From Veillonellales bacterium (GTDB taxonomy: Bacteria; Bacillota; Negativicutes; JAAYSF01): DNA of 32,591 nucleotides. The stretch lies in NCBI GenBank assembly GCA_039680175.1, contig JBDKTO010000049.1:1-32591 (forward strand), read 5' to 3'. Shown here piece by piece: positions 3,926-32,447 of this stretch; position 1 is the first letter of the stretch, and every line of letters starts with the position of its first letter. The position numbers and the translations under genes are program-made. Below the pieces are notes generated by a model. It saw nothing but the letters and a program-made list of their open reading frames with translations, was not told where the DNA came from and did not search any database.

Positions 3926-6352
3926 GTGAAAATTTGTAATTTTGATGAAGTGAAAAATGATATAATAGAACATCTTCGGGAGCATAGGCTTATTCCGGTT
4001 CTAGGAGCTGGTTTTTCAGCAAATAGTAGTGCCGTAAATGGTAAAGTTCCATCTGGGTCGGATTTGAAAGAATATATGATTCAACAAGTTTCAAATAAAA
4101 TAAATCTGACAGATGATAAAATATGGGATAATAAAACCTTCTCGCAGGTTGCAACATATTATCATAGTAAGATAGATAAGCCAGAACAAAAAAAGTATGT
4201 TAGAAATAATTTCACGCACGTAAAATTATGTGAACTAAAATGTGATTTCTTAGATATAGATTGGATATATTTATATACTTTAAATTTTGATGATGCGATA
4301 GAAGAATGTAGTCGTTATAAGTATGTAATTTATTCGAATAGAGATGTGGACTTTAACTCCTTATCAGACGAAAAATGCGTTATAAAATTACATGGCGATG
4401 CTAAAACTTTTATATCTTATAATGATGATAATAGTCAGATTTTTGATTTACAGCAATATGCAAAAAGTCTCAAAAAAAATATAAGTCTACTTAAAAAACT
4501 AGAACATGATTTTAAGTATAATAATTTGGTGTTTATTGGATGCAGTTTAGATAATGAATTTGACATAGCGTCATTAGAAATATGTAATGATATACATGTT
4601 GATATACATAATAGTGAAAAGACATCAAAATATTATTTAGCAATAACTGAACCAGATCCTTTAAAGAAAATTGACTTAGAACAATACGGAATTACTCATA
4701 TAGTTTTGTTTGATTCTTATAATGAAATATACAGGTCTATCATTGACGCATTTGAAATTTCGAAAAAGATACCAAAAGAAGATATTGATATTTATAAAAA
4801 TTTACCTATAAAAAAATACACTTCATCAGATTATGAAATTAACGCACCTTTTTTATTTGAAGGAAAACCTATATTAGATATTGAAAGTAAAGAAATTGTT
4901 TTGCCATATTTTTTTATTACGAGAACTATTACTGAAAAAATTTCAAAAAATCTAGATAAGAACACTATCCATGTTGTATATGGGGCAAGAGTTTCTGGTA
5001 AAAGTTATTTGCTTGCAGCATTGGTTCAAAATATTAGAGATAGAAATGTTTACTATTTTGATAGTAGAAATGAAATTTCTCATGAAGTTTTAAAGGTTCT
5101 TTTTAAAAAAGAGAATGTTTTATTGATTTTTGACACTAATTCAATTGATAAGGATAGTATTTTTGATTTATTGAATAGGCAAAATGACGTTCATGTAAAG
5201 AAAAATAATATTGTAATTGCCGTTAATACATCTGATAAGGATATTGTATCAGCAGTCAATAAAAATGAACGAAATAGAGATATTATTGGATATCCGTTGA
5301 GTTCAAAATTTTCAACGACAGAGATTAACGAGATTAATAAATTGATGTCACAAGCGGGACTTCCAAACTATAATATTCAACATACTATTATTGACAATAT
5401 TATAGAAATGGCGAAAACTTTTTCTTTAGAAAAAAATTATTTTACACAATTAACTCCCAATATGAAAACAGTTAATGATTTTGTTATACTAATTTTGTTT
5501 GCTATTAACGAGAAATTATCTACATCAACTCTTATGAATTTTGATATGACAGAGTCGTGTTTTGAGCAGATGAAAAAAACTACTCCTCTTATTACAGAAG
5601 AACATACTCTCTATTTTGAGCGAAATATAGAAAATTCATCATATAAAAAATATGTTATTAATGCCAAGTATTGGCTATATAGGCAACTTGGAAGTTATGT
5701 TAGAGAGAAAGATCATTATAAAACTATTATTGATGCATACAAATATATTATTTCTATTATTTTAAAGCAAAATAAAAAAAGAGCATATTCTTTAATTATG
5801 GATTATATTAAAATTGATATCATTAATGAAATTTTTTCAAGTGAAAAAAAGGGGCAATTAACTTTAGCTAAAGCGATTTATGAAGGATTAAGTTCACTTC
5901 TTTCAGAAAACCCTCATTTCTTTCACCAAAGAGCAAAATGTCATTGGTTACAAAGTTTTAGTAGCTCATCTATAGATGAACTAATAACTGGGTTAAGATA
6001 CGCTAACATAGCAAAGCATAACTTTTTGATTGAATATGAGCACCGAAAAAATGAAAAAATTGAGATATCTTTAGAGCATGTTAATTTTACCATTGCACTA
6101 ATTTATTCTCGTATAAATATAATAATTGGACTGGATAATATCGAAGCCATGCAGAAAGCAATTTCAGCAATATATGAGGCAATCAAGGGGCAATATAATC
6201 GAAGTGATTTCCTTGAAATAAAACAAAAGAGATCATCAAAGAAAAATGATATTCAAATTATACTTGAAAGTGCTATGAAAAATGCAAGTGCTTTAGATAA
6301 TAAGTCTAAGCAAAATTTAGAAGAGGTTATTCGTGAATTGAATTATATATGA
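3926..6352 (+). CDS. SIR2-domain plus P-loop (STAND-like) ATPase, probable anti-phage defence protein
   Basis: An 808-residue protein. The N-terminal SIR2-like domain (about 10-230) carries 'LGAGFS' (27-31), 'TLNFDD' with N120, 'KLHGD' with H156 and 'FIGCSLDNEFD' (203-213). The Asn and His are the residues that SIR2 defence effectors need to cleave NAD+. Next is a P-loop domain with Walker A 'GARVSGKS' (353-360) and Walker B 'VLLIFDTN' (398-405). The long C-terminal half (about 580-808) is mostly helical and without a recognised repeat, and is a likely sensor. This order matches SIR2-STAND defence proteins such as the Avs5 type, where phage recognition triggers NAD+ depletion. Start: GTG 9 bases after AAGGGG. 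The gene stands alone and is far more AT-rich than its neighbours, a sign of transfer. It lies between tRNA-derived repeats. The architecture is well supported; the defence role is inferred. Confidence 0.75.
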   Translation: MKICNFDEVKNDIIEHLREHRLIPVLGAGFSANSSAVNGKVPSGSDLKEYMIQQVSNKINLTDDKIWDNKTFSQVATYYHSKIDKPEQKKYVRNNFTHVKLCELKCDFLDIDWIYLYTLNFDDAIEECSRYKYVIYSNRDVDFNSLSDEKCVIKLHGDAKTFISYNDDNSQIFDLQQYAKSLKKNISLLKKLEHDFKYNNLVFIGCSLDNEFDIASLEICNDIHVDIHNSEKTSKYYLAITEPDPLKKIDLEQYGITHIVLFDSYNEIYRSIIDAFEISKKIPKEDIDIYKNLPIKKYTSSDYEINAPFLFEGKPILDIESKEIVLPYFFITRTITEKISKNLDKNTIHVVYGARVSGKSYLLAALVQNIRDRNVYYFDSRNEISHEVLKVLFKKENVLLIFDTNSIDKDSIFDLLNRQNDVHVKKNNIVIAVNTSDKDIVSAVNKNERNRDIIGYPLSSKFSTTEINEINKLMSQAGLPNYNIQHTIIDNIIEMAKTFSLEKNYFTQLTPNMKTVNDFVILILFAINEKLSTSTLMNFDMTESCFEQMKKTTPLITEEHTLYFERNIENSSYKKYVINAKYWLYRQLGSYVREKDHYKTIIDAYKYIISIILKQNKKRAYSLIMDYIKIDIINEIFSSEKKGQLTLAKAIYEGLSSLLSENPHFFHQRAKCHWLQSFSSSSIDELITGLRYANIAKHNFLIEYEHRKNEKIEISLEHVNFTIALIYSRINIIIGLDNIEAMQKAISAIYEAIKGQYNRSDFLEIKQKRSSKKNDIQIILESAMKNASALDNKSKQNLEEVIRELNYI

Positions 6353-7994: not shown

Positions 7995-9308
7995 ATGTCA
8001 GAGTTTTCACTGATGTTATTTCATGTAGGCAGAGCTGTCTTTGCAATATCGAATATTTGGTTAATGTATTCCTTCTTAACCTCCAAGCGGCCTTGGTGGT
8101 TTCAGATAATAGCCTTTGTTGGTACAGTGGCAGCGCACCTCTTTTTGCGACACCTTTTAACGCCAATGGGGCTCGACCCTTATTTGATTGGTTATATCCT
8201 GGCGTTATTGTATTTAGTCCCTGTTGCCCTGGTTTTCAAGGAAACAATTCATACTAAATTTTTTATTGTGTTTATGGTTGTTTGTTTTTCTCATTTTAAT
8301 TATATTTTTTGTTTGTTTTTAGAGCAATTACTATTTGGCCATACGGTAAGTATTTTGATTTTGCCAGGTCAACTCTTAGAACTAGCCGCTATACCATTAA
8401 TAAGAAGATATATAACGCCCCATATTAAAACTATGCTTGAAATTCTTGATCAGCAAAATCGTATTTTTATATGGTTTCCCTTTTTATCTTATCTGTTATT
8501 CGCTTATTATGGTATACAAAGACAGTATTTGTTGTCTGTTTTTATTCCGCTGGTATTATCAACTATAATTATTTTTATCGCATATTACTTAATCGCCATA
8601 GCCATTGCGCAGACGAAGTGTCATCAACAGCTTGAACAGCAATTGGCTTTGCAGCGTGATCACTATCGCAATCTGAATGACAGTATTCAGGAGACAAGAG
8701 TAATCCGCCACGATATGCGCCACCATTTAGTGATGCTTTTAGAATTTTTGGGTAAAAATGATGCTGCTGCTGCCCAAGAATATTTGAACAAGCTTTGTAA
8801 TTTCTACGATGACAGTTCTCTCCCTACAGTGTGCCGCAACCAATTGGCCGATGCCCTTGTCTGTCATTACCTAAAGCTAGCTAAGCAAAAGGAGATCAAC
8901 TTTGTCACCAACCTTTATATTCCTGACGATCCGGGGATTCATGATCTAGACCTATGCGTTATTATCGGTAACTGTTTAGAGAATGCTTTTGAGGCCTGCT
9001 GCAAGCTAAGTGACGCCAAGTTGCGTTTCATAGACATAAAGGCCACGATAAACAAAGGGTATCTAGTCATTACCATTGCCAATTCCTTTAATGGTCTTAG
9101 TAATCAGCAAGGGGATCATGCTGATTCTTCTAAAGAGGGTACGGAGCACGGAATCGGACTTAATAGTGTGAAAACACTGGCTGCCAAATATCAGGGAAAT
9201 TGTTCGGTTTCGGTGGAAGAGCATGTCTTTACAGTATTTATTTCCTTAAAAATCCCGGAAAGAACCGGGGGTGTGGTGAAATATGCTACTTATAGCGGTG
9301 TGCGATGA
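7995..9308 (+). CDS. AgrC/ComD-like sensor histidine kinase (GHKL ATPase)
   Basis: A 437-residue membrane kinase. Residues 8-205 hold six or seven membrane segments and form the sensor. The cytoplasmic part has the phospho-acceptor box 'VIRHDMRHHL' (H239), the N box 'IIGNCLENAFEAC' (326-335) and the G box 'EHGIGLNSVK' (384-393). This is the plan of AgrC/ComD kinases, which respond to peptide signals and phosphorylate a LytTR-type regulator. The ATG at 7995 follows GGAGG. The response-regulator gene begins inside its 3' end (9283) in another frame but is broken, so the kinase is probably orphaned. No agrB- or agrD-like gene is nearby. The long perfect hairpins at 7812-7905 lie in its leader region. 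Confidence 0.88.
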   Translation: MSEFSLMLFHVGRAVFAISNIWLMYSFLTSKRPWWFQIIAFVGTVAAHLFLRHLLTPMGLDPYLIGYILALLYLVPVALVFKETIHTKFFIVFMVVCFSHFNYIFCLFLEQLLFGHTVSILILPGQLLELAAIPLIRRYITPHIKTMLEILDQQNRIFIWFPFLSYLLFAYYGIQRQYLLSVFIPLVLSTIIIFIAYYLIAIAIAQTKCHQQLEQQLALQRDHYRNLNDSIQETRVIRHDMRHHLVMLLEFLGKNDAAAAQEYLNKLCNFYDDSSLPTVCRNQLADALVCHYLKLAKQKEINFVTNLYIPDDPGIHDLDLCVIIGNCLENAFEACCKLSDAKLRFIDIKATINKGYLVITIANSFNGLSNQQGDHADSSKEGTEHGIGLNSVKTLAAKYQGNCSVSVEEHVFTVFISLKIPERTGGVVKYATYSGVR

Positions 9309-9908: not shown

Positions 9909-10466
9909 ATGAATAAGTTGTATGCAATTATTGGTCCGCCGGCATCAGGTAAGACGACAATCGTGAAACGGCTTTTTGAACATTATAGTATTCCTGCGCT
10001 AGTAAGTCATACTACGCGTCTCCCCCAAAAAAATGAAGAAAATGGGAAAGACTATTACTTTGTCAGCAAGGCTGATTTTGCCACAATACAACATGTTGAG
10101 AAAGCCAATTATTCTGGCGATTTCTACGGACTTAGCAAAAATGAGGTTCTCAACAAAATTAGATTATATCCTGTTTCGGTTGTAGATATTGATGTGACTG
10201 GCTATAATCAGTTAAAAAGGTTACTGAGTGAGCGCTTGGAGTCCATCTATATTTTGGTTAACAAGGACGAGATTGTCAGTCGCTGTTTAGCTCAAGGGAA
10301 AAGCGCAGAGAATATTAAGAGGTTGATTGAATATGCGGAAGCTAAGGGCGAGTTTAACAACTGGCAGATTGCTGATCATGTGGTGAAAAATACTGGTTCT
10401 TTTGAAGTTACACTACGCCAGATTGCCGCTATATTGGATTTGGCGAATTTAAGTCATAATACCTAA
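9909..10466 (+). CDS. Guanylate kinase-like nucleotide kinase
   Basis: A 185-residue protein with P-loop 'GPPASGKTT' (9-17), the 'SHTTRLPQKNEENGKDYYFV' GMP-binding segment typical of guanylate kinases and 'VDIDVTGYNQLK' in the core. Guanylate kinase phosphorylates GMP to GDP with ATP. Canonical Gmk is about 200 residues with 'SvTTRxPRxGExdGxDYxFv'. Here the Arg-Pro-Gly part of that motif is changed (RLPQKNEENG), so this is likely an accessory paralogue or a related (d)NMP kinase rather than the housekeeping enzyme. A good ribosome binding site lies 8 bases before the ATG. It is a lone gene between repeat remnants, with no operon partner. Confidence 0.7.
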   Translation: MNKLYAIIGPPASGKTTIVKRLFEHYSIPALVSHTTRLPQKNEENGKDYYFVSKADFATIQHVEKANYSGDFYGLSKNEVLNKIRLYPVSVVDIDVTGYNQLKRLLSERLESIYILVNKDEIVSRCLAQGKSAENIKRLIEYAEAKGEFNNWQIADHVVKNTGSFEVTLRQIAAILDLANLSHNT

Positions 10467-11212: not shown

Positions 11213-12082
11213 TTATGTAAATGAGTTCTCAAGAAATGTATATAAGGTTTGAGATGCATAGGAAAGGTATTTGCTTTTCTTTTTGGCGGCGCCGATTGAT
11301 ATTTCTAGTGGTGGCGATAATAACACTGAATTTATGGTTTGGGTCTCAAATATTCCATTAGGAAGTATAGCTACGCCGGCGCCGGAGGTAATTAAATGCT
11401 TAACCATTTGAATATAGTTTGTTTCAAAGCTAACATGTGGTGCAATATTTTGTTTAGTTAGTTCAGACTTTAGAAAATGATGCAAGGAGCAGTTTTCTTT
11501 TGGCAAGATGAGCAGCTCATTTTTCAAGGCTGATAACGGCACGATGGTTCGGTTTTTTAGCGGGTGACAAGGCGGCAGGAAAACGGCTAATTGGTGATGA
11601 CATAAATTTACGTAATCCAATGTATCCATATCATCATCAATTAGTATTAAGCCTAAATCAATATGGTCTTCTTCAAGCATTTTTTTTATGTTGTGGGATC
11701 CATCTTCAATAAAATTAATTTTTAGTGAAGGATAAATGGTGTGGAATTTAGCGAGTAGAAATGAAGTTACAGGCAAACTAGTAATGGGAGATATACCAAA
11801 ATTTATGATGCCACTGTTTAAATTTTTCAATTCCGCTGCTTTTTCTGTGGCCTTGGACACATCATCCATAACAATAGTGATATAATCATGAAAAATTTTA
11901 CCTTCCGGTGTTAGAACAGCTTTTTTTTTGTTGCGTTCAAATAGTATAATGCCAACTTCGTTCTCCAGACGCCGGATAGTAGTAGTAACATTCGGTTGTG
12001 ACATATAGATCTGCTCAGCGGCGCGGGTAAAACTTTTTAGTTTGCTTACTGCTAAAAAGCATTCCAATTGTTTCAATTCCAT
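11213..12082 (-). CDS. LysR-family transcriptional regulator
   Basis: The 289-residue protein has a typical LysR winged helix at residues 1-60 ('KSFTRAAEQIYMSQPNVTTT' is the recognition-helix region) and a periplasmic-binding-protein-like effector domain after residue 90. The start ATG (12080-12082) is preceded on the minus strand by a GGAG site. It is divergent from the gene at 12330, which is followed by an amidohydrolase and a DcuC carrier. LysR proteins usually control the divergent unit, so those three genes are its likely targets. The 247-base space between them is AT-rich and would hold both promoters. The effector is unknown. Confidence 0.88.
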   Translation of the reverse strand: MELKQLECFLAVSKLKSFTRAAEQIYMSQPNVTTTIRRLENEVGIILFERNKKKAVLTPEGKIFHDYITIVMDDVSKATEKAAELKNLNSGIINFGISPITSLPVTSFLLAKFHTIYPSLKINFIEDGSHNIKKMLEEDHIDLGLILIDDDMDTLDYVNLCHHQLAVFLPPCHPLKNRTIVPLSALKNELLILPKENCSLHHFLKSELTKQNIAPHVSFETNYIQMVKHLITSGAGVAILPNGIFETQTINSVLLSPPLEISIGAAKKKSKYLSYASQTLYTFLENSFT

Positions 12083-12329
12083 AGTTAGACTCCAACTAAG
12101 ACAAATTGTAATATTTAATTATTATAACATATCAGAAATGGAGTAGGAAAATGGCTACTATATTTTGTTTATATGATAATATATTCAATTGTTATAATAG
12201 CTTTTATATGAGTATGTTACACTATTTAATTATACGTAGTTCTAGTAATAAGTTCGCTAAAAATAGTTAACATTATATTTTCAAGCAAAGAACGATGTCG
12301 GAATATGATTGTAAGGGGAGTGGCTGAAC

Positions 12330-13229
12330 ATGTGTCTTAATATTGTCGCTGTAGGCAGCAATAAATTAATTGCTGAAGAGGTTTTAAACGCTGTTAAGGT
12401 GATAATTGGCGATATCGCTAGTATTACGGCGGTGACCACGGCCTCAGTGCAGAATGATAGTGCCGGTGATTTTTTTATTTGCGCGGTTACGCAGAAGGAA
12501 CCTTTATCAAAAGTGGTTTCACCGGAAAAGCTAATTGTTCTTGATTTGCGGCCAACATTAGAATTTTTTGTACAGGTTTCCCGAATTCCGGCAGGTGAAA
12601 CAGTATATATTTTTAATTCTAATATTAATTATGCACAGTTATTAAAAGCATCTTGTGAATCTTTGAATATCAGGCAAGTTAATTTTGTTCCCATTGCTTA
12701 TGAAGATATGCCTAGTGAAGAGGTTATTAGTAAGCTGAGGCAGGCGAGGCATATTATCGGCGTTGGCAAACTGGTGGAGAGGGAAGTCTTGCTGTCGGAG
12801 CGTTATAAGCCTTATTTGCGTTCTGATGTTAAAATAATCGGCAATACACGTGTTGCTACGATGCAGTCGGCTTGCTTTTTGATTCAGCGCGTTACTGAGT
12901 ATTTTCATACACTTGTATCAAAAAAAATTGCTGGTTTGGTAGCTGACCTCAAACAGGTAGCCACACCTAATGGAAACCAAAATGGAGATGAATTTATTCG
13001 TATTACAGCGGAAATTGAAAAAGTGATTGCTGAAAGCAACCATGCGTCTGTAGCGCTGCGTAATAACATCATGAGATCATTTGCCGCGCAAATTTCATGG
13101 AATATAGTCATGGAAACTAAAGAAGAAAACAGCGAACTTTCCAGGCAGATGTCTGAATCTGACGGGAATAACGGCGAAATTGTTAAGGTGCTTAAGAATA
13201 TTGACTTTCTCAGTGACAATTTACGTTAA
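12330..13229 (+). CDS. Unrecognised protein, weakly like N-terminal sensory modules of Firmicute enhancer-type regulators
   Basis: A 299-residue soluble protein without a signal peptide. Residues 1-190 look like two alternating alpha/beta subdomains ('LNIVAVGSNKLIAEEVLNAV' at the start, 'RHIIGVGKLVEREVLLSERY' in the middle). They resemble, without a firm match, the sensory halves that precede sigma-54 activator or HTH domains in Firmicutes. Here no ATPase or HTH follows. Instead residues 200-299 are helical and polar, ending in 'NIDFLSDNLR'. The start ATG has AAGGGGAG upstream. It lies divergent from LysR and ahead of an amidohydrolase and DcuC, separated from them by a terminator, so it may be independently controlled. 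I do not assign a function; a ligand-binding regulatory partner is one possibility. Confidence 0.6.
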   Translation: MCLNIVAVGSNKLIAEEVLNAVKVIIGDIASITAVTTASVQNDSAGDFFICAVTQKEPLSKVVSPEKLIVLDLRPTLEFFVQVSRIPAGETVYIFNSNINYAQLLKASCESLNIRQVNFVPIAYEDMPSEEVISKLRQARHIIGVGKLVEREVLLSERYKPYLRSDVKIIGNTRVATMQSACFLIQRVTEYFHTLVSKKIAGLVADLKQVATPNGNQNGDEFIRITAEIEKVIAESNHASVALRNNIMRSFAAQISWNIVMETKEENSELSRQMSESDGNNGEIVKVLKNIDFLSDNLR

Positions 13230-13245
13230 TATAAATTTATAATGG

Positions 13246-13281
13246 GAGCGGCTTCAAGCGTATTGAGGCCGTTCTTTTTTA
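13246..13281 (+). terminator. Intrinsic terminator after the unrecognised gene
   Basis: GAGCGGC (13246-13252) pairs with GCCGTTC (13268-13274) with extra pairs toward the loop, followed by TTTTTT. It separates the gene at 12330 from the amidohydrolase. Confidence 0.75.
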
Positions 13282-13376
13282 TTAATATTTTGTGTAAATT
13301 CTAGCATTTATAATTGCTATCATGTGTGCTGACTAGATGTGATATATTCGAGTTAGAAGAATAGAGGAGCTGAACT

Positions 13377-14603
13377 ATGATGGGTAAAGATTGGGTAGAG
13401 TTAATGTTTAAAAAGATGGCTGATATCGGGAAAATTGAGCATGGTTATAATAGATTGGCGTACTCTGATGCTGATTGGCAGGCCAAAATGTTAATCATGG
13501 ATACTATGAAAGAACTTGGTCTGAACGTTAGGATGGATGCTGTAGGGAATATTATTGGTAGGCTGGAAGGAACTGATAAGAATGCAACCGTTGTAGCTGC
13601 CGGTTCACATGTTGACTCTGTGCCGGAGGGCGGTAATTATGATGGCTCTGTCGGTGTTATCGGCGCCTTATGCGCAGTGAAACGACTTAAAGCACAGGGA
13701 GATTTAACGCATCCGCTTGAGATTTGGGTATTTGCTGGCCATGAGTCCAGCCGCTTTGGTTTTGCTCATTTGGGCAGCCGTTCTATTTGCGGCATGGCTG
13801 ATCCGGACAAATGGGCTACTATCAAAGATACTATGGGGAATACCGTTCCGGAAGTGCTGGTTTCACGCAATTTGCATTTTGATAAAATTGCTGAAGCAAA
13901 GCGCAATCCGGCAGAATTAAAGTCCTTTATGGAGTTGCATATTGAACAAGGGCCAATACTCGAAAATAATAAAATCGCTATAGGTATTGTTACGGACATT
14001 GCTGCACCGATTAGACTTTCGATTAAGATACAGGGCAATCCGGCGCATTCCGGAACAACACCGATGGGTGTCCGCCATGACGCTTTGGTTACAGCGTCTC
14101 AGATAGTGCTGGCAGTACGGAAACATGCGTTGGCTGCACTGGACAAGGGAATTGTCGGGACAGTTGGCATGATGCAGGTAAAACCGGGTGCTATGAATAT
14201 AGTTCCAGGCTTTGTAGAAATGTGGGTAGATGTGCGCGGAAATAAATTTGAAAATGTTTCTGAGGTTATTAATCAAATTAAGGAAAGCGCTAAGAAGAGT
14301 GCGGCTGAAGAAGGTACAAGGGTTCAGATCGATACAATATCATCAGCTAAACCTGTACATTTGGATGAAAATCTAATGAAAATGGTGAAAGAGTCTTGCG
14401 AAAAATTGAATATTTCTTATACGTATATGATTGGCGGCGGCGGGCATGATTCGCAAAATATCGCCCATATCATGCCGACAATTGTTATGCATATTCCCTG
14501 CCGCAATGGAGTCAGCCATACCCCGGAGGAGTACGCCAAAATTGAGGATATTATGCCAGGAATTGATGTAATGACTGACGTACTGGCTAAGCTGGCCAAA
14601 TAA
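13377..14603 (+). CDS. M20-family amidohydrolase (N-carbamoyl-amino-acid hydrolase / allantoate amidohydrolase type)
   Basis: The 408-residue enzyme belongs to the Zn-dependent hydantoinase/carbamoylase group, which removes a carbamoyl or ureido group from N-carbamoyl-amino acids or allantoate. Metal ligands are visible: His in 'GSHVDS' (H78), Asp in 'GGNYDG' (D89), Glu in 'GHESSRFG' (E123), His in 'ELHIEQG' (H188) and a C-terminal His in 'NGVSHTPEE'. The usual motif is 'EESSRFG', with the first Glu as catalytic base; here that position is His (H122), an odd substitution. Start ATG 13377 follows AGAGGAG; the next codon is also ATG. A DcuC-type carrier starts 29 bases after the stop, so the two form an operon, suggesting an imported dicarboxylic or aspartate-related substrate. 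The exact substrate is not known. Confidence 0.82.
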   Translation: MMGKDWVELMFKKMADIGKIEHGYNRLAYSDADWQAKMLIMDTMKELGLNVRMDAVGNIIGRLEGTDKNATVVAAGSHVDSVPEGGNYDGSVGVIGALCAVKRLKAQGDLTHPLEIWVFAGHESSRFGFAHLGSRSICGMADPDKWATIKDTMGNTVPEVLVSRNLHFDKIAEAKRNPAELKSFMELHIEQGPILENNKIAIGIVTDIAAPIRLSIKIQGNPAHSGTTPMGVRHDALVTASQIVLAVRKHALAALDKGIVGTVGMMQVKPGAMNIVPGFVEMWVDVRGNKFENVSEVINQIKESAKKSAAEEGTRVQIDTISSAKPVHLDENLMKMVKESCEKLNISYTYMIGGGGHDSQNIAHIMPTIVMHIPCRNGVSHTPEEYAKIEDIMPGIDVMTDVLAKLAK

Positions 14604-14632
14604 AAAGAGTTGATATTCAAGGAGGTGTTTTT

Positions 14633-15883
14633 GTGGTTTGGATAGGTTTTGCTATTGTAATAGTAACATTTTATGCAATAATCAAAAAATTTGAAACAAG
14701 ATTGGTGCTATTTGTTTCTGGGCTGCTTATGGCGTTTATAGGCGGTAATATTGCGGGCTGTGTGAATGCATTTGTAAAAGAATTTACAAATGCCGGACTG
14801 GTGCCGACAATTTGTACGGTATTAGGTTTTAGCTATGTTATGGACTATACTGGTTGCAGTAAGCATTTAGTAGTATTTATGACCAATATACTTAAGAAAG
14901 TCAAGATCATTCTCATTCCCGGTACAGTTATTGTGACCTTTCTGTTAAATATTGCGCTGCCCAGTGCTGCCGGCGCGGCAGCGGCAGTCGGGGTATTATT
15001 AATTCCAACTCTTATTAGTACAGGCGTTCATCCGGCGCTTGCAGCAAGTGCGGTTTTCTTAGGAACGTGGGGCAGTGTTATGAGTCCTGGGCTAATGTTT
15101 AACCCTCAAGTAGCTAAAATTGCCGGAGTCGATGTAATGACGGTTATTGCTACTTTTTCCAGGCAGGTTTTATTTGCTGCTTTTGTGGCAGCCATTGTGT
15201 TGGCTTTGATTGCCTATATAAAAAAAGAGGGCGCTGGCAGTCAGTCTACTGAAATTGTTGTTCAAGAAGAAGACTTTAAAGTAAATGTATTATGGGCGAT
15301 TGTGCCCATATTGCCCATCACTTTACTGATTTTAGGCAGTGAGCAGCTTCATATATTGCCGATAATTACAGTCCCGCAATCAATGCTCATTGGTACGGCA
15401 ATCGGTTTTATTGTAGCACGGCCTAATGTCTTTGAAGGGACAAAGCGGTTTTTTAAAGGCTGCGGCGATGGTATGGGCGATGTAGTTGGTCTTATAGCCG
15501 CCGCGGCTGCTTTTACTCAGGGAATGGAGATTATTGGCTTGATAGGAGCTTTGGTGGAAGTTATGAAAAATTCTCAGCAGGTTGCTCAATTTGCGTCGGC
15601 TTTTGGTCCATTTATTATTGCGGCTGTTTCCGGTTCTGGCAATGCGGCGGCACTGGCTTTTAATGGGGCGGTTACGCCTTACGCAACGCAGTTTGGCTAT
15701 GGTATAGTTGAACTTGGCTCAATGGCCCAGATCGGAGCTGGCCTTGGACGTTGTATGTCGCCAGTAGCAGGTGCGGCTATTATTTTAGCAAAAATGGCGG
15801 GAGTAAATCCAATAGAATTAGCTAAACGAAATGCGATTCCAACCATTATTGCGACATTAATAGTTATGTTTACGCTATTATGA
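14633..15883 (+). CDS. DcuC-family anaerobic C4-dicarboxylate carrier
   Basis: A 416-residue inner-membrane carrier with about 12 membrane segments and the small-residue-rich central segments of the DcuC family ('IALPSAAGAAAAVGVLLIPT', 'FLGTWGSVMSPGLMFNPQ', 'AAVSGSGNAAALAFNGAV'). DcuC proteins move C4-dicarboxylates such as succinate or fumarate across the membrane of anaerobic cells, often as exchangers. The start is GTG with GGAGGTG upstream. It is cotranscribed with the M20 amidohydrolase. E. coli DcuC is slightly longer (about 460 residues). Transport substrate and direction are inferred from the family; uptake of the amidohydrolase substrate is equally possible. Confidence 0.82.
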   Translation: MVWIGFAIVIVTFYAIIKKFETRLVLFVSGLLMAFIGGNIAGCVNAFVKEFTNAGLVPTICTVLGFSYVMDYTGCSKHLVVFMTNILKKVKIILIPGTVIVTFLLNIALPSAAGAAAAVGVLLIPTLISTGVHPALAASAVFLGTWGSVMSPGLMFNPQVAKIAGVDVMTVIATFSRQVLFAAFVAAIVLALIAYIKKEGAGSQSTEIVVQEEDFKVNVLWAIVPILPITLLILGSEQLHILPIITVPQSMLIGTAIGFIVARPNVFEGTKRFFKGCGDGMGDVVGLIAAAAAFTQGMEIIGLIGALVEVMKNSQQVAQFASAFGPFIIAAVSGSGNAAALAFNGAVTPYATQFGYGIVELGSMAQIGAGLGRCMSPVAGAAIILAKMAGVNPIELAKRNAIPTIIATLIVMFTLL

Positions 15884-16191
15884 TACCAGGTTTGGCGATG
15901 ATTTAAGCTTCTATACTTCGAGAATGGCAATTATCGCAAGGTATTGGGCAATAACAGGGTCAGGTCGACGATAATTCCCATGGAGAGATATTTAGGAATG
16001 CTTATGTGTTAAAGATGAGATCAGGTTTAATCCTATCTTTTACCTCCGCTTAGCATGGTAAGCCCTTCAATACCTAAACAGTGTCAAAATGGCCGCAAAG
16101 GTCAGTGCAATATCCGTAATAGAACGGCTTCATCTTGCACAGATTGGCGAAAAAAGCACCAATAAATAACACAAATCCCGAATGAAACCCA
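15884..16191 (+). other. Gene-free spacer after DcuC
   Basis: I see no gene on the plus strand. On the minus strand a short open stretch (about 16078-16191) reads as hydrophobic sequence ('GFVLFIGAFFANL') and may be the remnant of a membrane protein, but it has no start and is too short to identify. The spacer ends at the 'agggacaggg' start of repeat copy D. Confidence 0.4.
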
Positions 16192-16505
16192 GGGACAGGG
16201 ATTTTGTTTTACTGCAATGCACTAGGAAGGCAAAAAGGAAGGCAATTATCTGTAAAACACTGTAGAATATATGTAAAATAGTCAAAATGATAAATGGAAA
16301 GAACGTTGATTTTATTGAATTTGTGTAAAAGGATAGAGAGCAAATAAAAGAAAATCATGCCTTCCTAAACCGCGTGCCGGTGGTTTGAGTCCTCCCGGGC
16401 GCACCATTCAAAATATTAGAACGGCAAGGCCTCAGAAATTCTGAACCTTGCCGTTTTTGTGCTTTTTAAGCAGTTTTGTATGCTAGTTGTATGCATCGAT
16501 TTCGG
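16192..16505 (+). repeat. tRNA-Arg-derived repeat, copy D (most complete unit)
   Basis: The left arm runs 16192-16360 and matches copy A at its start and copy E at its end ('ttgattttattgaatttgtg'). The tRNA part (about 16361-16406) is the longest: 'CCTTCCTAAACCGCG' is a CCT anticodon loop plus 3' anticodon stem, then variable loop, T arm, acceptor and CCA. Terminator and tail follow, the tail with two 'gtatgc' repeats. Anticodon CCT plus acceptor CGGGCGC identify the parent as tRNA-Arg(CCU). The 5' half is absent. Confidence 0.8.
16420..16459 (+). terminator. Intrinsic terminator of repeat copy D
   Basis: AACGGCAAGG (16420-16429) pairs with CCTTGCCGTT (16446-16455) with an inner TCAGA/TCTGA stem, followed by TTTTT. 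Confidence 0.85.
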
Positions 16506-16549
16506 CATAAATTTTGGCTGCCTTAAAATCGGACTCAGGGGACGGTTCT

Positions 16550-16703
16550 ACTGATTCGCCATGGCGGCGCAAAGACGACCATGGCAACGCTCAAGCAACT
16601 GCCAACACTGGTAAAAGTGACAGCGGCTGTGCGGAAGGGTTGAAGAAAGCTACCGAGAAAATATTGACATGAATAAGTGACATTAACACTAACTGTCACT
16701 TAT
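16550..16703 (+). other. Possible 3' coding remnant followed by a 10-bp dyad
   Basis: After 'caggggacggttctactg' (from 16533), one frame is open to a TGA at 16672 and reads as a hydrophilic C-terminal tail ('DSGCAEGLKKATEKILT'). It may be the end of a lost gene; I do not recognise it. Directly after it, ATAAGTGACA (16673-16682) and TGTCACTTAT (16694-16703) form a perfect 10-bp inverted repeat with an 11-base spacer, an operator-like dyad without a clear target gene. Confidence 0.35.
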
Positions 16704-16830
16704 CTCATCGTATGGCATTATAATTCTCCCTACGGCCAATGAGCAACAGCAACCAGGGCTCTTTTGCTGCCTCGTCTAACCACAAGCCGTTGGTATTGAG
16801 CATGGGAAAAAAGCCACTATCGAAATCGCT

Positions 16831-16900
16831 TCGGTAGGTTCGAGCCTTCCGTTTTTGTATTTGTAGGCAGTTTTATATTGTTATTTGTATGATACGCAGA
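16831..16900 (+). repeat. tRNA-Arg-derived repeat, copy H (internally deleted)
   Basis: A T-arm piece 'GGTTCGAGCC' is joined directly to the terminator's T-run and tail ('gtttttgtatttgtaggcag', then 'ttatttgtatgatacg'). The acceptor strand and left hairpin arm are missing. It lies just downstream of the minus-strand LysR gene. Confidence 0.6.
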
Positions 16901-17794
16901 TTATAGTTGAACACACTTTAGCCCAAATTTTGTCATAAGTTCTAACCAATTCTTAACTGGTAGCTCATTTATTTTATTGGCATTAACCGCTAGGTAAGTT
17001 TCCCATTTTGGCGGTAAATTAGGTCCGATAAGTGGAATTTCGATAAGTGTCTTGTTATTTAATTCATTTGCTACAGAGGATCTGTTTAATATTGCCGGCC
17101 CCAGGCCCTGCTTTACTAAAGAAAGAATAATGTATGCAGGATCAATTTGGGCTTGAAATAAGTGATTTGCCGGTAGTACTTCATTAATCCACTTACTGAA
17201 TGGCCCAGACCAATTGTGATATAAGAGATTAATATGGGATAATTCTTCAACGGGAATGGAAGGACATTCTGCTAGAGGATGATTGGGATGGACAACTAAA
17301 ACGAAATCATCTTCATGACAGGCAAATACGTTAAAACGATTTAATCTTGGTGGTTGATAAACTATAGCAAGGTCTATTACGCCATCTACTAATAATTGTA
17401 TTATTTCTGATGAGTGCCCTGTTGTTGCTTTAAACGATATCTGCGGATACTGTACTAGATATTCTTTGAGGACTGGGAATAGGAGGTTACGCCAAATTGA
17501 ATCTACACTGCCAATAACAAGACGCCCTTCGAAGGGAATAATGGCGTTGGCTTTAGTTTTGCCTTCCTCGTAAAGATGAAGCATTCTTTCTGCGTAAGGC
17601 AAAAATACACTTCCGGCTTCCGATAACTCAACCTTCTGTTTAGTTCTTAGAAAAAGCTGTTTGCCAACAGCTTTTTCTAATTCCTGAATACGGGTTGTAA
17701 CTGTAGACTGAACAATATGCTGTAATTCTGCAGTTTTTGAGAAGTTTTTTGTTTGGGAAAGGATCATTAAGGTTCGCAATAACTCAATTTCCAA
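16901..17794 (-). CDS. LysR-family transcriptional regulator, TTG start
   Basis: A 297-residue LysR protein. The helix-turn-helix 'TKNFSKTAELQHIVQSTVTT' is near the N terminus and the effector-binding domain follows from about residue 90. I start it at TTG 17794. On the minus strand, AGGAGGTGATC, nearly a full complement of the 16S rRNA 3' end, lies 8 bases or less upstream, and the resulting N terminus 'LEIELLRTLMILSQTKNFSK' aligns with the family. A GTG at 17803 lies inside that ribosome binding site. It is divergent from the DcuA/B carrier gene at 17927 and is its likely regulator. The 132 bases between them hold a small dyad. Confidence 0.87.
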   Translation of the reverse strand: MEIELLRTLMILSQTKNFSKTAELQHIVQSTVTTRIQELEKAVGKQLFLRTKQKVELSEAGSVFLPYAERMLHLYEEGKTKANAIIPFEGRLVIGSVDSIWRNLLFPVLKEYLVQYPQISFKATTGHSSEIIQLLVDGVIDLAIVYQPPRLNRFNVFACHEDDFVLVVHPNHPLAECPSIPVEELSHINLLYHNWSGPFSKWINEVLPANHLFQAQIDPAYIILSLVKQGLGPAILNRSSVANELNNKTLIEIPLIGPNLPPKWETYLAVNANKINELPVKNWLELMTKFGLKCVQL

Positions 17795-17844
17795 AAGGAT
17801 CACCTCCTAATCGAAAATTATGATAAATATAATTGATATAATTC

Positions 17845-17875: not shown

Positions 17876-17926
17876 TATTTTTAGTAGGGATCAGCATATT
17901 ACAATGAAGTGTTAAGGAGGCAGAGG

Positions 17927-19249
17927 ATGTTTTGGGTTGAGCTAATACTTTTATTTTCCATGTTACTTATTGGTGCAAGGCGTGGCGGACTTTTTCTCGG
18001 TATGGTCGGCGGATTGGGAATGGCTGTCTTAGTATTCGGATTTCATTTGACCCCGGCGAACCCACCAATCAATGTAATACTAATCATTGCTACGGTCATA
18101 CTGGCTGCCGGTACCATGCAGGCTGCGGGCGGGATGGACTATATGGTTGGTTTAGCTGAAACAATATTAAGAAAAAATCCAAAAAACATTACATTTTTAG
18201 CACCCGTGGTGGTATATCTTTTTTGCTTTATGTCAGGGACGGGCTATGTAGCGTTCAGCCTGTTGCCGGTAATAGCAGAAGTAGCTCGTGAGTCTGGAAT
18301 TCGTCCGGAAAGGCCGTTGTCGATAACAGCCGCCGCATCGCAACAGGCTGTTATCGCTAGTCCGATTTCAGCCGCTACTGCGGTTATGCTTGGTATTTTT
18401 CTGCCTTTCAATGTTGGGCTAGTGGACATTTTAAAGGTTTGTATTCCTGCAACCTTTATTGGAGTGCTGGCCGGTGCTCTGTATGCCAGCCGAATGGGCA
18501 AGGATTTGGACAAAGACTCTGAGTACTTGGAACGAGTTGCAAAAGGTGAGGTTCCTCCTTTAGTGAAAGAAGAGTACAATGAAAAGCATTTTACAAAGGA
18601 AGCAAAACTGGCGGTTTTATTGTTCTTACTAGGTGCGGTAGCTATAGTGATTTTGGGAACTTTTCCATCCTTGCGGCCCTTATTAAAGTATGCTGGGAAA
18701 CTGCAAGCTTTACCTATGCCTGAAACCATAGAAATCATCATGTTAGTGATTTCGACAGCAATGGTTGTTTTATGTAAGGTTAATGTCGGGAAAATCAGTG
18801 ATGGCTCGGTTTTTAAGTCAGGTATGGTTGGCATACTCGTTGTTTTTGGAGTTGCATGGATGAGCGATACGATGGTAAGTACAAATAGCGCCCTGATACA
18901 AAGTGGTATTAAATCTACTGTTATGGCATATCCTTGGATGTTCCTTTTTGCTGTATTTGCTATCGATATTTTGATTGCAAGCCAGTCTGTATCAAGTGCG
19001 GCGATGATGCCGCTGGGGGTTTTGCTCGGCGTTCCCATCCCTTTATTAATCGCTATGTATCCGGCGGTGAACAGCCATTTCTTTTTACCTACTTCTACCA
19101 TTCAAGTTACGAGTGTAGCGTTGGACTGTACTAAGACAACAAAGATCGGCAAATATGTATTAAACCATAGTTTCATGATGCCCGGTTTCGTTACAATGGC
19201 TGTAGCAATTATTGCAGGATATATACTGACAGAGATTTTTATGCGTTAA
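17927..19249 (+). CDS. DcuA/DcuB-family anaerobic C4-dicarboxylate transporter
   Basis: The 440-residue integral membrane protein has about 11 segments and the DcuA/DcuB hallmarks: 'VVVYLFCFMSGTGYVAFSLL', 'RPERPLSITAAASQQAVIAS' with 'SPISAA', and a C-terminal 'SHFFLPTSTIQVTSVALD'. These carriers exchange fumarate, malate, succinate or aspartate in anaerobes. The ATG at 17927 follows AAGGAGG (17914-17920) by 6 bases; an in-frame GTG at 17909 precedes that site and is not the start. The length matches the family (430-446). It is the first gene of an operon with a PLP enzyme (24-base gap) and RidA, divergent from LysR. The operon context suggests import of the amino acid or dicarboxylate used by the PLP enzyme. 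Confidence 0.9.
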   Translation: MFWVELILLFSMLLIGARRGGLFLGMVGGLGMAVLVFGFHLTPANPPINVILIIATVILAAGTMQAAGGMDYMVGLAETILRKNPKNITFLAPVVVYLFCFMSGTGYVAFSLLPVIAEVARESGIRPERPLSITAAASQQAVIASPISAATAVMLGIFLPFNVGLVDILKVCIPATFIGVLAGALYASRMGKDLDKDSEYLERVAKGEVPPLVKEEYNEKHFTKEAKLAVLLFLLGAVAIVILGTFPSLRPLLKYAGKLQALPMPETIEIIMLVISTAMVVLCKVNVGKISDGSVFKSGMVGILVVFGVAWMSDTMVSTNSALIQSGIKSTVMAYPWMFLFAVFAIDILIASQSVSSAAMMPLGVLLGVPIPLLIAMYPAVNSHFFLPTSTIQVTSVALDCTKTTKIGKYVLNHSFMMPGFVTMAVAIIAGYILTEIFMR

Positions 19250-19272
19250 TTTAAAGTCGGAGGTAATGACTA

Positions 19273-20418
19273 ATGTACAAAATGAATCCCTATTTAAAAA
19301 AAATGTATTGTATACGTTGCGGGACGCTATATGAAATCGGCGATTACCACACAGGCTGTCCGTCGTGCCGTAAAGAAGGATATCCTGTCAATTTATCCTG
19401 TAAATATGAGGGAAAACAAAAAATACGAAACGATAAAAGACGTATGTTCCGTTACCAGGATTTTTTGCCCTATGAGTCATTTCCTACTCTTGGCGAAGGA
19501 AATACTCCTATTATAGAAGTAAAAAGCCTGGTTGATAAATTTAATCTTAAGAAGGTGTATATCAAAAATGAGTTTCAAAACCCAACTGGTTCTCATAAAG
19601 ACAGGATGAGTCCCTTCGCTGTCGCACGGGCGGTTAGTCTTGGTAAAAAGTGCGTTGTTGCGGCTTCTTCGGGTAATGCAGGCGCATCTTTATCTGCTTA
19701 TGCCGCTGCTGCGGGAATTGAATGTAAAATTATAACGACTAAAAAAATGAATCCTATTTGGAAAAAAGCGATTGAATTACCCGGAGCCGAATTAGTATTG
19801 ATGAACACACCTAAAGAAAGATGGCCCTATATGCAAAAAAAGGTTGAGCAGGAAGGCTGGTATCCGGTTACCAATTTTGTAGCTCCTCCTGTAGGTAGCA
19901 ATCCTTTTGGTATTCAAGGATATAAAACCATATCTTATGAAATTTACGAAGAACTCGGCGATGATATACCGTCTTTTATCCTGATCCCGTCCTGTCGTGC
20001 CGATTTACTTTGGGGGGTTTATGAAGGATTTAAGGATTTATTAGATTTGGGATTAGTTCAGAAGGTACCACATTTAGTAGCTGTTGAGCCATATGCAAGA
20101 ATTACCAAAATTCTTGAGGGAGAAGACTATCGAAATATATTTTCGGGGGACAGTTCCGCAACGGTGTCGATCGGAGGTGATACTGTCACTTATCAGGCTG
20201 TATCTGCGGTCCGGCTGTCAGGTGGAGCTGCAAGCAACATTAGTCAGAATCAGGTTGCTGATTATCAACGTGAACTTGCCAAGAGCGGCTTTTACCTTGA
20301 AAGTTCGGCAGCAACGATAATTGGGTCTCTTACCCAGCTTATTGCCGATAAGATTATTCCGCAAGGCGCCTGTGTGCTAATGATTGCAACCTCTAACGGA
20401 TACAAAGATATACCGTAA
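19273..20418 (+). CDS. Threonine-synthase-like PLP enzyme (fold type II) with N-terminal zinc ribbon
   Basis: A 381-residue PLP enzyme. Cysteines C13, C16, C29 and C32 form a CxxC..CxxC zinc ribbon as in archaeal-type threonine synthases. The PLP lysine lies in 'NPTGSHKDRMS' (K109) and the phosphate loop is 'SSGNAGAS' (132-139). The family contains threonine synthase and various ammonia-lyases and beta-replacing enzymes. It is not in a threonine pathway operon. It follows a DcuA/B carrier and is followed by RidA, which clears enamine/imine products of PLP dehydratases. A role in degrading an imported hydroxy- or amino-dicarboxylic acid fits better than threonine synthesis, but the substrate is not visible from the sequence. 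GGAGGT stands 8 bases before the ATG. Confidence 0.8.
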   Translation: MYKMNPYLKKMYCIRCGTLYEIGDYHTGCPSCRKEGYPVNLSCKYEGKQKIRNDKRRMFRYQDFLPYESFPTLGEGNTPIIEVKSLVDKFNLKKVYIKNEFQNPTGSHKDRMSPFAVARAVSLGKKCVVAASSGNAGASLSAYAAAAGIECKIITTKKMNPIWKKAIELPGAELVLMNTPKERWPYMQKKVEQEGWYPVTNFVAPPVGSNPFGIQGYKTISYEIYEELGDDIPSFILIPSCRADLLWGVYEGFKDLLDLGLVQKVPHLVAVEPYARITKILEGEDYRNIFSGDSSATVSIGGDTVTYQAVSAVRLSGGAASNISQNQVADYQRELAKSGFYLESSAATIIGSLTQLIADKIIPQGACVLMIATSNGYKDIP

Positions 20419-20465
20419 AAAATTATAAATTGTATATTTGAAAATTTAAGAAAGAAGTGGAAAAA

Positions 20466-20840
20466 ATGAAAACTATTGTTAATACAAATAGTGCTCCGGC
20501 GGCTATTGGACCGTATTCTCAGGCAATTAAAGCTAATGGCTTTTTATTTGGCTCAGGACAAATTCCGGTTGATCCTTCAACCGGGAATGTTTGCAGCGGC
20601 ATAGAGGCTTCGACACGGCAAGTGCTCGAAAATATTAAGGCCATCTTACAAAGTGAAGGGCTTAGGTTCGATAGTGTTGTGAAGACAACCGTATTTTTAA
20701 GAAGTATGGATGATTTCCGAATAGTGAATTCGATCTACGGTGAATATTTTATAGAGGGTGCTCCTGCAAGATCTTGTGTACAAGCAGTTAAATTACCTAA
20801 AGATGTATTGATAGAAATCGAATTTATTGCAATAGCTTAA
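20466..20840 (+). CDS. ridA: RidA-family enamine/imine deaminase
   Basis: A 124-residue protein of normal RidA length. Motifs: 'GPYSQAIKANGFLFGSGQIP' near the start and 'GAPARSCVQAVKLPKD' with the substrate-binding Arg (R102), then 'IEIEFIAIA'. RidA hydrolyses reactive 2-aminoacrylate-type enamines released by PLP enzymes, protecting other PLP enzymes. I take ATG 20466; the GTG at 20457 is part of the purine-rich ribosome binding region. It lies 47 bases after the PLP enzyme gene, as the third gene of that operon, which supports enamine release by that enzyme. Confidence 0.88.
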   Translation: MKTIVNTNSAPAAIGPYSQAIKANGFLFGSGQIPVDPSTGNVCSGIEASTRQVLENIKAILQSEGLRFDSVVKTTVFLRSMDDFRIVNSIYGEYFIEGAPARSCVQAVKLPKDVLIEIEFIAIA

Positions 20841-30748: not shown

Positions 30749-31493
30749 GAGACCATTTTGCTAAGTTTTTCAGAAATTCAGATCTACTGCGGTTGATCGT
30801 ACGCTTTCTTAAACAGGGATCATGGAACAGGGCAAAAACGATGTGACGGAAATGGGAACGCCACAAGGGGGGGAATTATATCTCCTACTTTGGCGAACGT
30901 ATACCTGCACTATGTACTGGACCTGTGGTTCACCGTCAAAGTGAAACGGGAAAGCAGGGGAGAGGCATATCTCATCCGGTATACCGATGACTTTCTGTGC
31001 TTCTTCCAGTACCAAGAAGATGCTGAAACTTTTAATCAGAAGCTCATTGAGCGATTGAGGAAATTCAATCTGGAGATAGCGGAAGGCAAAACAAAAGCAT
31101 TGAATTTGGACGCTTTGCGCAAGAAAGGCGTGCACGGCGAGGAGAAGGTAAACCGGGAACTTTTGATTTTCTCGGATATACGCATTACTGTAACCAGAGT
31201 CAAAATGGAAGATTCCGCGTCAAGAGGGCAACCAGTAGGAAGAAATTCCGAGCGAAGCTAACAAGCCAACCGCTTTTGCACAATGGCTTCACGAGAATAT
31301 GCATACAGAGATAGGAGAGCTAGTAAGACAAGTTAATGCTAAGTTAGTTGGGCATTACCGCTATTACGGGGTAACCGATAACAGCGGCAGAATTCATGGC
31401 TTTGCATATTTCATACGGCGTAACCTTTTCGCTGCGCTGAATCGTCGGAGCCAGAAAAAGAGTCTTACATGGGAAAAAATTCGCAAAACTTAA
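30749..31493 (+). pseudogene. Group II intron reverse transcriptase/maturase, truncated and frameshifted
   Basis: Homology runs through three or more frames. 'NSDLLRLIVRFLKQG' (about 30776), then 'NDVTEMGTPQGG', then after an expanded G7 run at 30867-30873 the frame 'ANVYLHYVLDLWF' with the catalytic 'YLIRYTDDFLCFF'. From about 31160 another frame reads 'FDFLGYTHYCNQSQNGRFRV', and the last frame (31299-31493) holds 'MHTEIGELVRQVNAKLVGHY', the thumb/domain X part. The active-site 'YTDD' is a variant of the usual YADD. At least three frameshifts and a missing N terminus mean no functional enzyme. It belongs with the domain V/VI RNA downstream. Confidence 0.8.
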
Positions 31494-31638: not shown

Positions 31639-31748
31639 CACGTGTCCTGCACTTTTGAGGAGAGGAGGCCTAACTTTATAAATGTGAATTACTGCGATAG
31701 AGCGAGATAAACAAAGAAAAACGTTTGATTATTAAGGGAGGAGATAGA

Positions 31749-32447
31749 ATGAAAAAATTAGGTTTGGTCGGGGGGATGGGCCCGGAGTCTACTATCCTTT
31801 ATTATCATGACATTGTGTACGGCGTCCAGAAGAACGTCGGTGGCGGTTACTTCCCCAATTTAACCATTGAAAGCGTAAATGTATTTGAGGTTCTGAGATT
31901 ATGTCGGGAAGGAAAATTTAGTGAACTGGTGGACTACCTTATGCAGGCAATCAACAATTTGACTGCCTGCGGCGCTGAGTTTGCCGCTTTGTCAGCCAAC
32001 ACACCGCACATCGTATTCGACGAATTGAAGAAAAAATCCCCCATCCCGCTCGTAAGTATAATTGACACGGCCTGCAAGGAAGCAAAAAGACGGAATTTTA
32101 CAAAGCTGGGCTTGCTGGGAACGGTATTTACAATGACCGATGAGTTTTTCAAGGAGCCTTTTATCGACAGTGGAATCGAAATAATTATCCCAAAAGAGCA
32201 GGAGATGTCATTGATCAATGAGAAAATTTCCGGTGAGTTGGAGTTGGGAATTATAAAAGACGAAACGCTGCAGGCCTTCTTGAGAATTATCAAACGTATG
32301 GAACGTGAGGAAGGCATTCAGGCTATCATACTAGGCTGTACAGAACTTCCCTTAATCTTAAACGATGAGGTAACTCCCATCCCTTGTTTGGACACGATGA
32401 AAATCCATGTGCAGGCGCTGGTGGATACCATCACAGAACGATTATGA
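31749..32447 (+). CDS. Aspartate/glutamate racemase-family protein with Ala in place of the first catalytic Cys
   Basis: The 232-residue protein starts 'KKLGLVGGMGPESTILYY', the standard opening of the Asp/Glu racemase family, which moves the alpha proton of acidic amino acids without a cofactor. Two cysteines act as acid and base in most members. The second is present ('LGCTELPLIL', C197), but the first motif, normally CNT, reads 'LSANTPH' with Ala at 83. E. coli YgeA has Thr there and works mainly from the L side. So this enzyme may be one-sided, a different isomerase, or not a racemase. ATG 31749 has AAGGGAGGAG upstream. The next gene overlaps its stop (ATGA), suggesting coupled translation. 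Confidence 0.82.
   Translation: MKKLGLVGGMGPESTILYYHDIVYGVQKNVGGGYFPNLTIESVNVFEVLRLCREGKFSELVDYLMQAINNLTACGAEFAALSANTPHIVFDELKKKSPIPLVSIIDTACKEAKRRNFTKLGLLGTVFTMTDEFFKEPFIDSGIEIIIPKEQEMSLINEKISGELELGIIKDETLQAFLRIIKRMEREEGIQAIILGCTELPLILNDEVTPIPCLDTMKIHVQALVDTITERL

Follow-up and report, generated by a model that had tools for sequence, protein, structure and literature searches.

The M20-family protein encoded at positions 13377–14603 of the window (the whole 32,591-nucleotide stretch of DNA that was analyzed) has a histidine, His122, in place of the catalytic glutamate of its relatives and, as judged from sequence comparisons, appears to belong to a separate, selectively kept branch of the M20 hydantoinase/carbamoylase family that differs from the rest both at the catalytic residue and around it. 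The swap is accompanied by His131, His372, Gly353, and Gly355. We suggest, with a probability of about 0.5, that the protein is an active His-based metal amidohydrolase with a rebuilt active site, whose substrate would be brought in by a DcuC carrier. A Glu to His swap that is natural, conserved, and linked to further changes offers a ready test of the role of that residue, and the name "allantoate amidohydrolase" conceals the distinct active site of this lineage. The active-site motif of the window protein is WVFAGHESSRFGFAHLGSR, and the gene and its relevant codons are as follows.

13377–14603, + strand: M20-family (hydantoinase/carbamoylase-type) protein, 408 residues; intact open reading frame, assigned by profile and predicted fold
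13608–13610, + strand: codon of His78, metal ligand, kept (alignment)
13641–13643, + strand: codon of Asp89, bridging metal ligand, kept (unreadable in genome G033, where the assembly has a gap)
13740–13742, + strand: codon of His122, which replaces the catalytic Glu (alignment, census)
13743–13745, + strand: codon of Glu123, metal ligand, kept (alignment)
13767–13769, + strand: codon of His131, clade-specific (none of the 124 others has His here, 84 having Thr)
13938–13940, + strand: codon of His188, metal ligand, kept (alignment)
14433–14441, + strand: codons 353–355, Gly-Gly-Gly, before His357; Gly353 and Gly355 are clade-specific
14490–14492, + strand: codon of His372, clade-specific, last residue of a predicted strand (Phe in 111 of the 122 others with a letter here, His in none)
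14517–14519, + strand: codon of His381 (the C-terminal His), metal ligand, kept (alignment)

In profile and fold the window protein resembles the hydantoinase/carbamoylase family, represented here by AllC (1z2l/4pxd), ureidoglycolate amidohydrolase (UAH; 4pxb/4pxe), 3n5f, 8c46, and beta-alanine synthase (1r3n). It scored 385.3 bits against TIGR01879 (hydantoinase/carbamoylase family amidase; curated cut-off 204), and an AF2 model built from an 11-row alignment (mean pLDDT 89.3, pTM 0.86) has the two-domain M20 fold, the first 38 PDB matches listed by Foldseek all being solved structures of this family. The TM-score (query-normalized) was 0.94 to AllC 4pxd and UAH 4pxe and 0.74 to the top match by E-value, L-N-carbamoylase 3n5f. 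Also shared with the family are its five metal ligands (His78, Asp89, Glu123, His188, and His381), along with Gln191, His224, Asn274, Arg287, and His357. The differences are His122 for the catalytic Glu that directly precedes the ligand Glu, a GGGGHD loop for SGAGHD in all four of the His proteins described below, and the extra histidines 131 and 372. The residue after His381 also differs, being Thr in the His clade (Ala in G566) and Asn in 86 of the 122 others with a letter there. Since His122 replaces the catalytic Glu, we file the window protein as a homologous variant lineage rather than as a functional member of the family.

The protein also passed the cut-off of the "allantoate amidohydrolase" subfamily model NF006771 (415.1 bits against 399); that match is a name by subfamily, holds no evidence for the substrate, and the automatic label should not be trusted. 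Both equivalog models were missed, that of the AllC allantoate deiminase (TIGR03176) with 281.4 bits against 597.75 and that of ErtE, an N-carbamyl-L-glutamate amidohydrolase (NF058540), with 380.1 bits against 520. Given the missed AllC cut-off, allantoate as a substrate taken from annotation is unsupported.

The sequence-only reading had proposed that the family motif EESSRFG reads GHESSRFG here, with His at the general-base position and the five ligands present, and both parts were borne out. In phmmer alignments His122 falls on the catalytic Glu of wild-type UAH (4pxe) and AllC (1z2l), which is Ala in chains 4pxb and 4pxd; the Glu that follows it aligns with Glu123. Columns 121–123 are Glu-Glu-Glu in AllC and Gly-His-Glu in the window protein, so that no neighboring Glu has moved in, AllC already having Glu at each place. 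Another Glu taking the base position was sought and found neither in the alignment nor among the nine clade-specific changes given below (0 of 9 is to Glu).

Histidine as a common state of the family was likewise rejected by a census of the homologous column. Among 129 distinct homologous stretches from the sampled loci, a part of those that the searches listed (window included; L067–L070 and L073 skipped as repeats, nine duplicate stretches dropped), 128 have a letter at column 122, which is Glu in 122, His in four, Ser in one, and Lys in one, with one gap; outside the His clade, a Glu thus precedes the metal-binding Glu in 122 of 124 homologues. A degenerate DNA pattern for GHESSRFG was present in four of 380 genomes of the class, belonging to four genera and three families: the window's own genome (G000, family f1), G033 (f22), and G566 and G589 (both f12). 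The same 380 genomes include 233 with a match to the window protein at E up to 0.001, and the His gene is therefore patchily spread. The orthologues are 72% (G033), 64% (G589), and 55% (G566) identical to the window protein.

No further His-type member was detected in the other collections searched. This was the case in a scan of contigs from 84,980 species (three distant relatives, 34% identical), which is weak because it used exact eight-residue peptides of the window protein only, and among the matches listed for a phylum sample of 398 genomes with up to four candidates scored in each, where the best by E-value outside the window's genome was 43% identical and a 181-residue stretch in G382 was 48% identical. 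It was also the case in viral contigs, where one search was empty and another gave eight distant relatives, with Glu in the seven of seven aligned, and in 1,238 plasmid records, where all matches were below 60% identity and the best of 12 listed was 38% identical. A literature search, outside which most subscription papers fall, found no natural Glu to His swap at this M20 position.

Nine positions are uniform in the four His proteins and rare (<5%) in the 124 others: Cys99, His122, His131, Ile212, Ser215, Gly353, Gly355, Val370, and His372. A histidine at 122, 131, or 372 occurs in four of four His proteins and in none of the 124 others. In the SGAGHD loop, Gly353 stands where 121 of the 122 others with a letter have Ser, and Gly355 where 117 of 122 have Ala and a single one (L008) has Gly. 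That related bacteria keep the swap together with two other new histidines makes it look like part of a rebuilding of the active site and not like an error. In the AF2 model the ligands His78 and His188 end strands 72–78 and 181–188, His372 ends strand 368–372, and Gly353 ends strand 348–353; since each is the last residue of its strand, the four probably lie on one edge of the sheet, and we infer from the model that the clade-specific changes line the metal site. The surrounding machinery is kept, with all five ligands readable in the window, G589, and G566 and four in G033 (Asp89 lies in the gap), and with the substrate-side residues Gln191, His224, Asn274, Arg287, and His357 conserved wherever readable (Asn274 and Arg287 are unreadable in G033).

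What residue 122 may touch is suggested by the N-carbamoyl-beta-alanine amidohydrolase structure 8c46, where, according to its authors, the carbamoyl group of modeled ligands is oriented by Glu131, Gln196, and His385 and the carboxylate is bound by Arg291 (PMC10952681). Homologue L031 aligns with 8c46 over equally long stretches (1–397 to 9–405), and a single constant numbering offset, worked by hand, followed by the alignment of L031 with the window protein, places these four residues on conserved residues of L031 and on window positions 122, 191, 381, and 287. If this mapping is right, the replaced residue is in contact with the scissile group, and the three residues that act with it are conserved.

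The gene is otherwise well kept, as had been noted from the sequence. Pairs of His orthologues differ at 0.67–0.87 of synonymous sites (pS) and at 0.17–0.31 of non-synonymous sites (pN), so that synonymous change is almost saturated in a protein that is conserved, and the protein is therefore under purifying selection. Of 52 family-invariant positions, 48 are retained in every His orthologue with a letter there (G033 covers 43); the changes amount to three of 52 in the His proteins, or four of 43 in G033, and some Glu-type members (L086, L089, L095, and L130) also differ at four of 52. The frames are open in the three full orthologues, and in G033, an assembly 73% complete, runs of N interrupt the M20 gene.

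The four His proteins form one clade with an SH-aLRT value of 100 in a 127-row tree. They do so again (100/100) in a 52-row tree built without columns 122, 131, 353, 355, and 372, with a stem length of 0.89 changes per site (neither tree includes fragment L084). The window's genome also encodes two Glu-type M20C paralogues, L080 and L081 (45 and 42% identical to the window protein), which belong to the same family but have the Glu-Glu motif and the usual family residues and fall outside the His clade. L080 groups with Glu copies of the same-family genomes G001 and G002 with a support of 83 in the 127-row tree and is not grouped with them in the 52-row tree.

Three other M20C homologues lack the catalytic Glu or metal ligands. 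L008 (genome G009; the same gene as L074, 3694–4941 on the − strand) has Ser at the catalytic position (SESSRFG), is changed at six of 52 invariant positions, Asn274 among them, and keeps the five metal ligands; it has Gly355 like the His clade, but lacks His131, His372, and Gly353, and it is not the sister of the clade in the 52-row tree, its place in the 127-row tree being unresolved. L101 (G711:C4:39201–40388) has Lys at the catalytic position, Tyr for ligand His381, and eight of 52 invariant positions lost. L123 (G082:C1:2365218–2366426) is an open homologue that has lost 20 of 51, ligands His78, Glu123, and His381 included, and is a strong pseudoenzyme candidate by its sequence.

The genes around the M20 gene bear on what it may do, and comprise the following.

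11213–12082, − strand: divergent LysR-type regulator, with a counterpart at each of the three other His-type loci (truncated by the contig end in G033)
12330–13229, + strand: 299-residue protein with no family match, between the LysR and M20 genes (open reading frame)
13244–13276, + strand: terminator-like hairpin of 14 pairs with a T run, between the gene of the 299-residue protein and the M20 gene (consensus match only)
14633–15883, + strand: DcuC-type carrier (NF037994); downstream in the three other His-type loci too (in G566, after an added gene)

The carrier gene reached 365.5 bits against NF037994 (cut-off 100) and missed the other DcuC subfamily model, TIGR00771, with 157.8 against 187. 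It starts 29 bases past the M20 stop with a good Shine-Dalgarno sequence, and no terminator-like site was found in this gap among those listed (10 sites in 12050–16950, with 4.1 expected); co-transcription of the M20 and dcuC genes is plausible from this arrangement. In G033, G589, and G566 the carrier is 69–72% identical to that of the window, and the LysR gene is divergent and 46–56% identical. The carrier directly follows the M20 gene in G033 and G589; in G566 it follows an added amidohydrolase gene (TIGR01891, 289 bits against a cut-off of 153.75), here called M20D. Between regulator and carrier, no recognizable enzyme other than the His protein is encoded in the window, G589, and G033.

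Related loci in other genomes have a homologous LysR regulator, a neighbor of 253–324 residues, and a DcuC carrier, as the His-type loci do, but with different hydrolases. In G679 the same regulator, neighbor, and carrier (85% identical to that of G566) occur with a Glu-type M20C and an M20D, and in G006 and G572 a more distant set (carrier 44–48% identical to those of the His-type loci) occurs with an M20D, no M20C being found in these two stretches. These M20D proteins are 63–73% identical to that of G566 and keep the AEEG motif; they take the place of a Glu-type M20C or, in G679, lie beside it. M20 hydrolases are thus found at seven of the eight carrier loci compared (window, G033, G589, G566, G679, G006, and G572, but not G007), which lends mild support to a hydrolytic job for the His protein. 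An M20 reaction cannot be deduced from the set of regulator, neighbor, and carrier alone, since the 10 kb read in G007 encode regulator, neighbor, and a 58% identical carrier but no M20 protein, and the 9 kb read in G003 encode regulator and neighbor but neither carrier nor M20 protein.

The 299-residue neighbor matched nothing in Pfam at E values up to 10 and one PDB entry weakly (E 0.055), and its relative in G589 had three Pfam matches, all below cut-offs (best E 0.019). In G589 and G566 the relatives (46 and 53% identical, respectively) are encoded with the LysR gene between them and the M20 gene, and none was seen on the stretch of the G033 contig that was read. Relatives occur in 53 of 380 genomes of the class, so the protein is not tied to the His enzyme; a LysR gene adjoins in the eight loci checked (window, L071, L072, and L170–L174). 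It represents an undescribed family and is perhaps a sensor.

In relatives of the window protein the metal holds a water molecule and the Glu acts as proton acceptor and donor. Under the reading that we favor, His122, aided by His131 and/or His372, would take over this proton transfer, the relay activating the metal-bound water and then protonating the leaving nitrogen. With the metals and the substrate-side residues kept, such a relay is the simplest active design. The DcuC-type carrier would import the substrate, a small N-carbamoyl, ureido, or N-acyl compound with a carboxylate, and expression of the M20-carrier pair would be turned on by the LysR protein.

An analogy is offered by isatin hydrolase, also a metal-dependent enzyme of amide hydrolysis, for which a His is argued to be the base and whose site is likened by the authors to that of AllC (PMC6117287). 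Isatin hydrolase differs from M20 proteins in having an unrelated fold and one Mn site, so the analogy is one of mechanism only. The AllC counterparts given there for its proton-transfer triad, Glu127, His382, and His226, map by phmmer to Glu123, His381, and His224 of the window protein, all kept; if that triad applies, residue 122 would be less central.

The best allantoinase matches sit away from the His genes, on contigs with other M20C genes. Allantoinase matches above the cut-off (357.85) occurred in one of four His-type genomes, compared with two of 14 control genomes. The exception is G566 (369.7 bits on contig C38, with an M20C match, its type unread, at C38:7714); in the window's genome the best match (355.0 bits) falls just below the cut-off and lies on contig C11, which carries a Glu-type M20C at C11:53709, the window being contig C49. 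D-hydantoinase matches above the cut-off were found in none of the four and in two of the 14 controls. G033 may nevertheless have such a gene, as its best match is split into pieces scoring 384.4 and 130.2 bits (cut-off 393.25).

It is rather doubtful, but deserves serious weight, that the protein binds metal and ligand without cleavage and works inside the cell by binding or sensing the compound that DcuC carries. The lost residue is the one that is Ala in chains of relatives crystallized with substrate: 4pxb and 4pxd are such Glu to Ala entries, and with substrate held in them the swap at 122 could simply stop catalysis. Beta-alanine synthase E159A is likewise titled as a substrate complex (2v8h, column unchecked), as is wild-type 1z2l with allantoate. 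The window protein retains its substrate-side residues and not the base. Other metallopeptidase families include pseudopeptidases with a swapped base, an example being Ecm14 of family M14, with Lys for the base Glu and no detected activity (PMC11266112). Nor does ligand retention prove activity, because L008, with Ser122 and the Gly355 of the His clade, retains all five. Against a loss of catalysis, three coordinated new histidines in four orthologues suggest rebuilding, the invariant positions changed are fewer (three of 52, or four of 43 in G033) than in L008 (six of 52) or L101 (eight of 52, ligand His381 included), and in three of four loci no other recognizable enzyme stands between regulator and carrier. 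The sequence-only reading had left altered chemistry, a binding role, and loss of activity side by side; we favor altered catalysis over binding, a choice that sequence alone cannot decide.

A changed metal site or new chemistry is unlikely; here His122, His131, and His372 would bind an extra or different metal, or the protein would catalyze a non-hydrolytic reaction (lyase or isomerase) on a ureido compound or amino acid. The three histidines are common to one clade and absent outside it, His372 ends a strand in the model as the ligands His78 and His188 do, and the stem branch of the clade is long. However, the literature search found no precedent, and the kept metal ligands and carbamoyl-orienting Gln191 fit hydrolysis. 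Drawing on this and on the proton relay alike, we put forward only tentatively that the lineage is a new type of M20 active site, in which a set of three histidines (122, 131, and 372) stands for the Glu as a proton relay or as ligands of an extra or different metal, in a reaction new to the family and from an operon with its own carrier.

Sequencing error, a pseudogene, or chance drift in one genome is extremely improbable, having the rarity of His at 122 in its favor and nothing else, whereas codon 122 is CAT in four genomes of four genera whose GHESSRFG orthologues are only 55–72% identical to the window protein, frames are open in the full orthologues, and the retained invariant positions, pN far below pS, and the kept link to dcuC make loss by decay very unlikely.

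Several other genes of the window may be noted. A second Dcu-type C4-dicarboxylate transporter gene stands in a row with genes for a threonine-synthase-like PLP enzyme (below model cut-offs) and a Rid-family protein (17909–20840, + strand), and a LysR gene (16901–17803, − strand) diverges from this row. An amino-acid racemase gene lies at 31725–32447. A guanylate-kinase-like protein (9909–10466, + strand; PF00625, 74 bits) is encoded adjoining a GHKL-type sensor kinase gene (7995–9308). At 30890–31261 (+ strand) is a reverse transcriptase-like fragment (PF00078, 28.8 bits against a gathering score of 29.6), probably a remnant. The gene at 3926–6352 (+ strand) encodes an 808-residue protein with a SIR2-like domain, weak ATPase similarity, and a match to the PADLOC Avs5 model (E 2.9e-74), and is likely an anti-phage defense gene.
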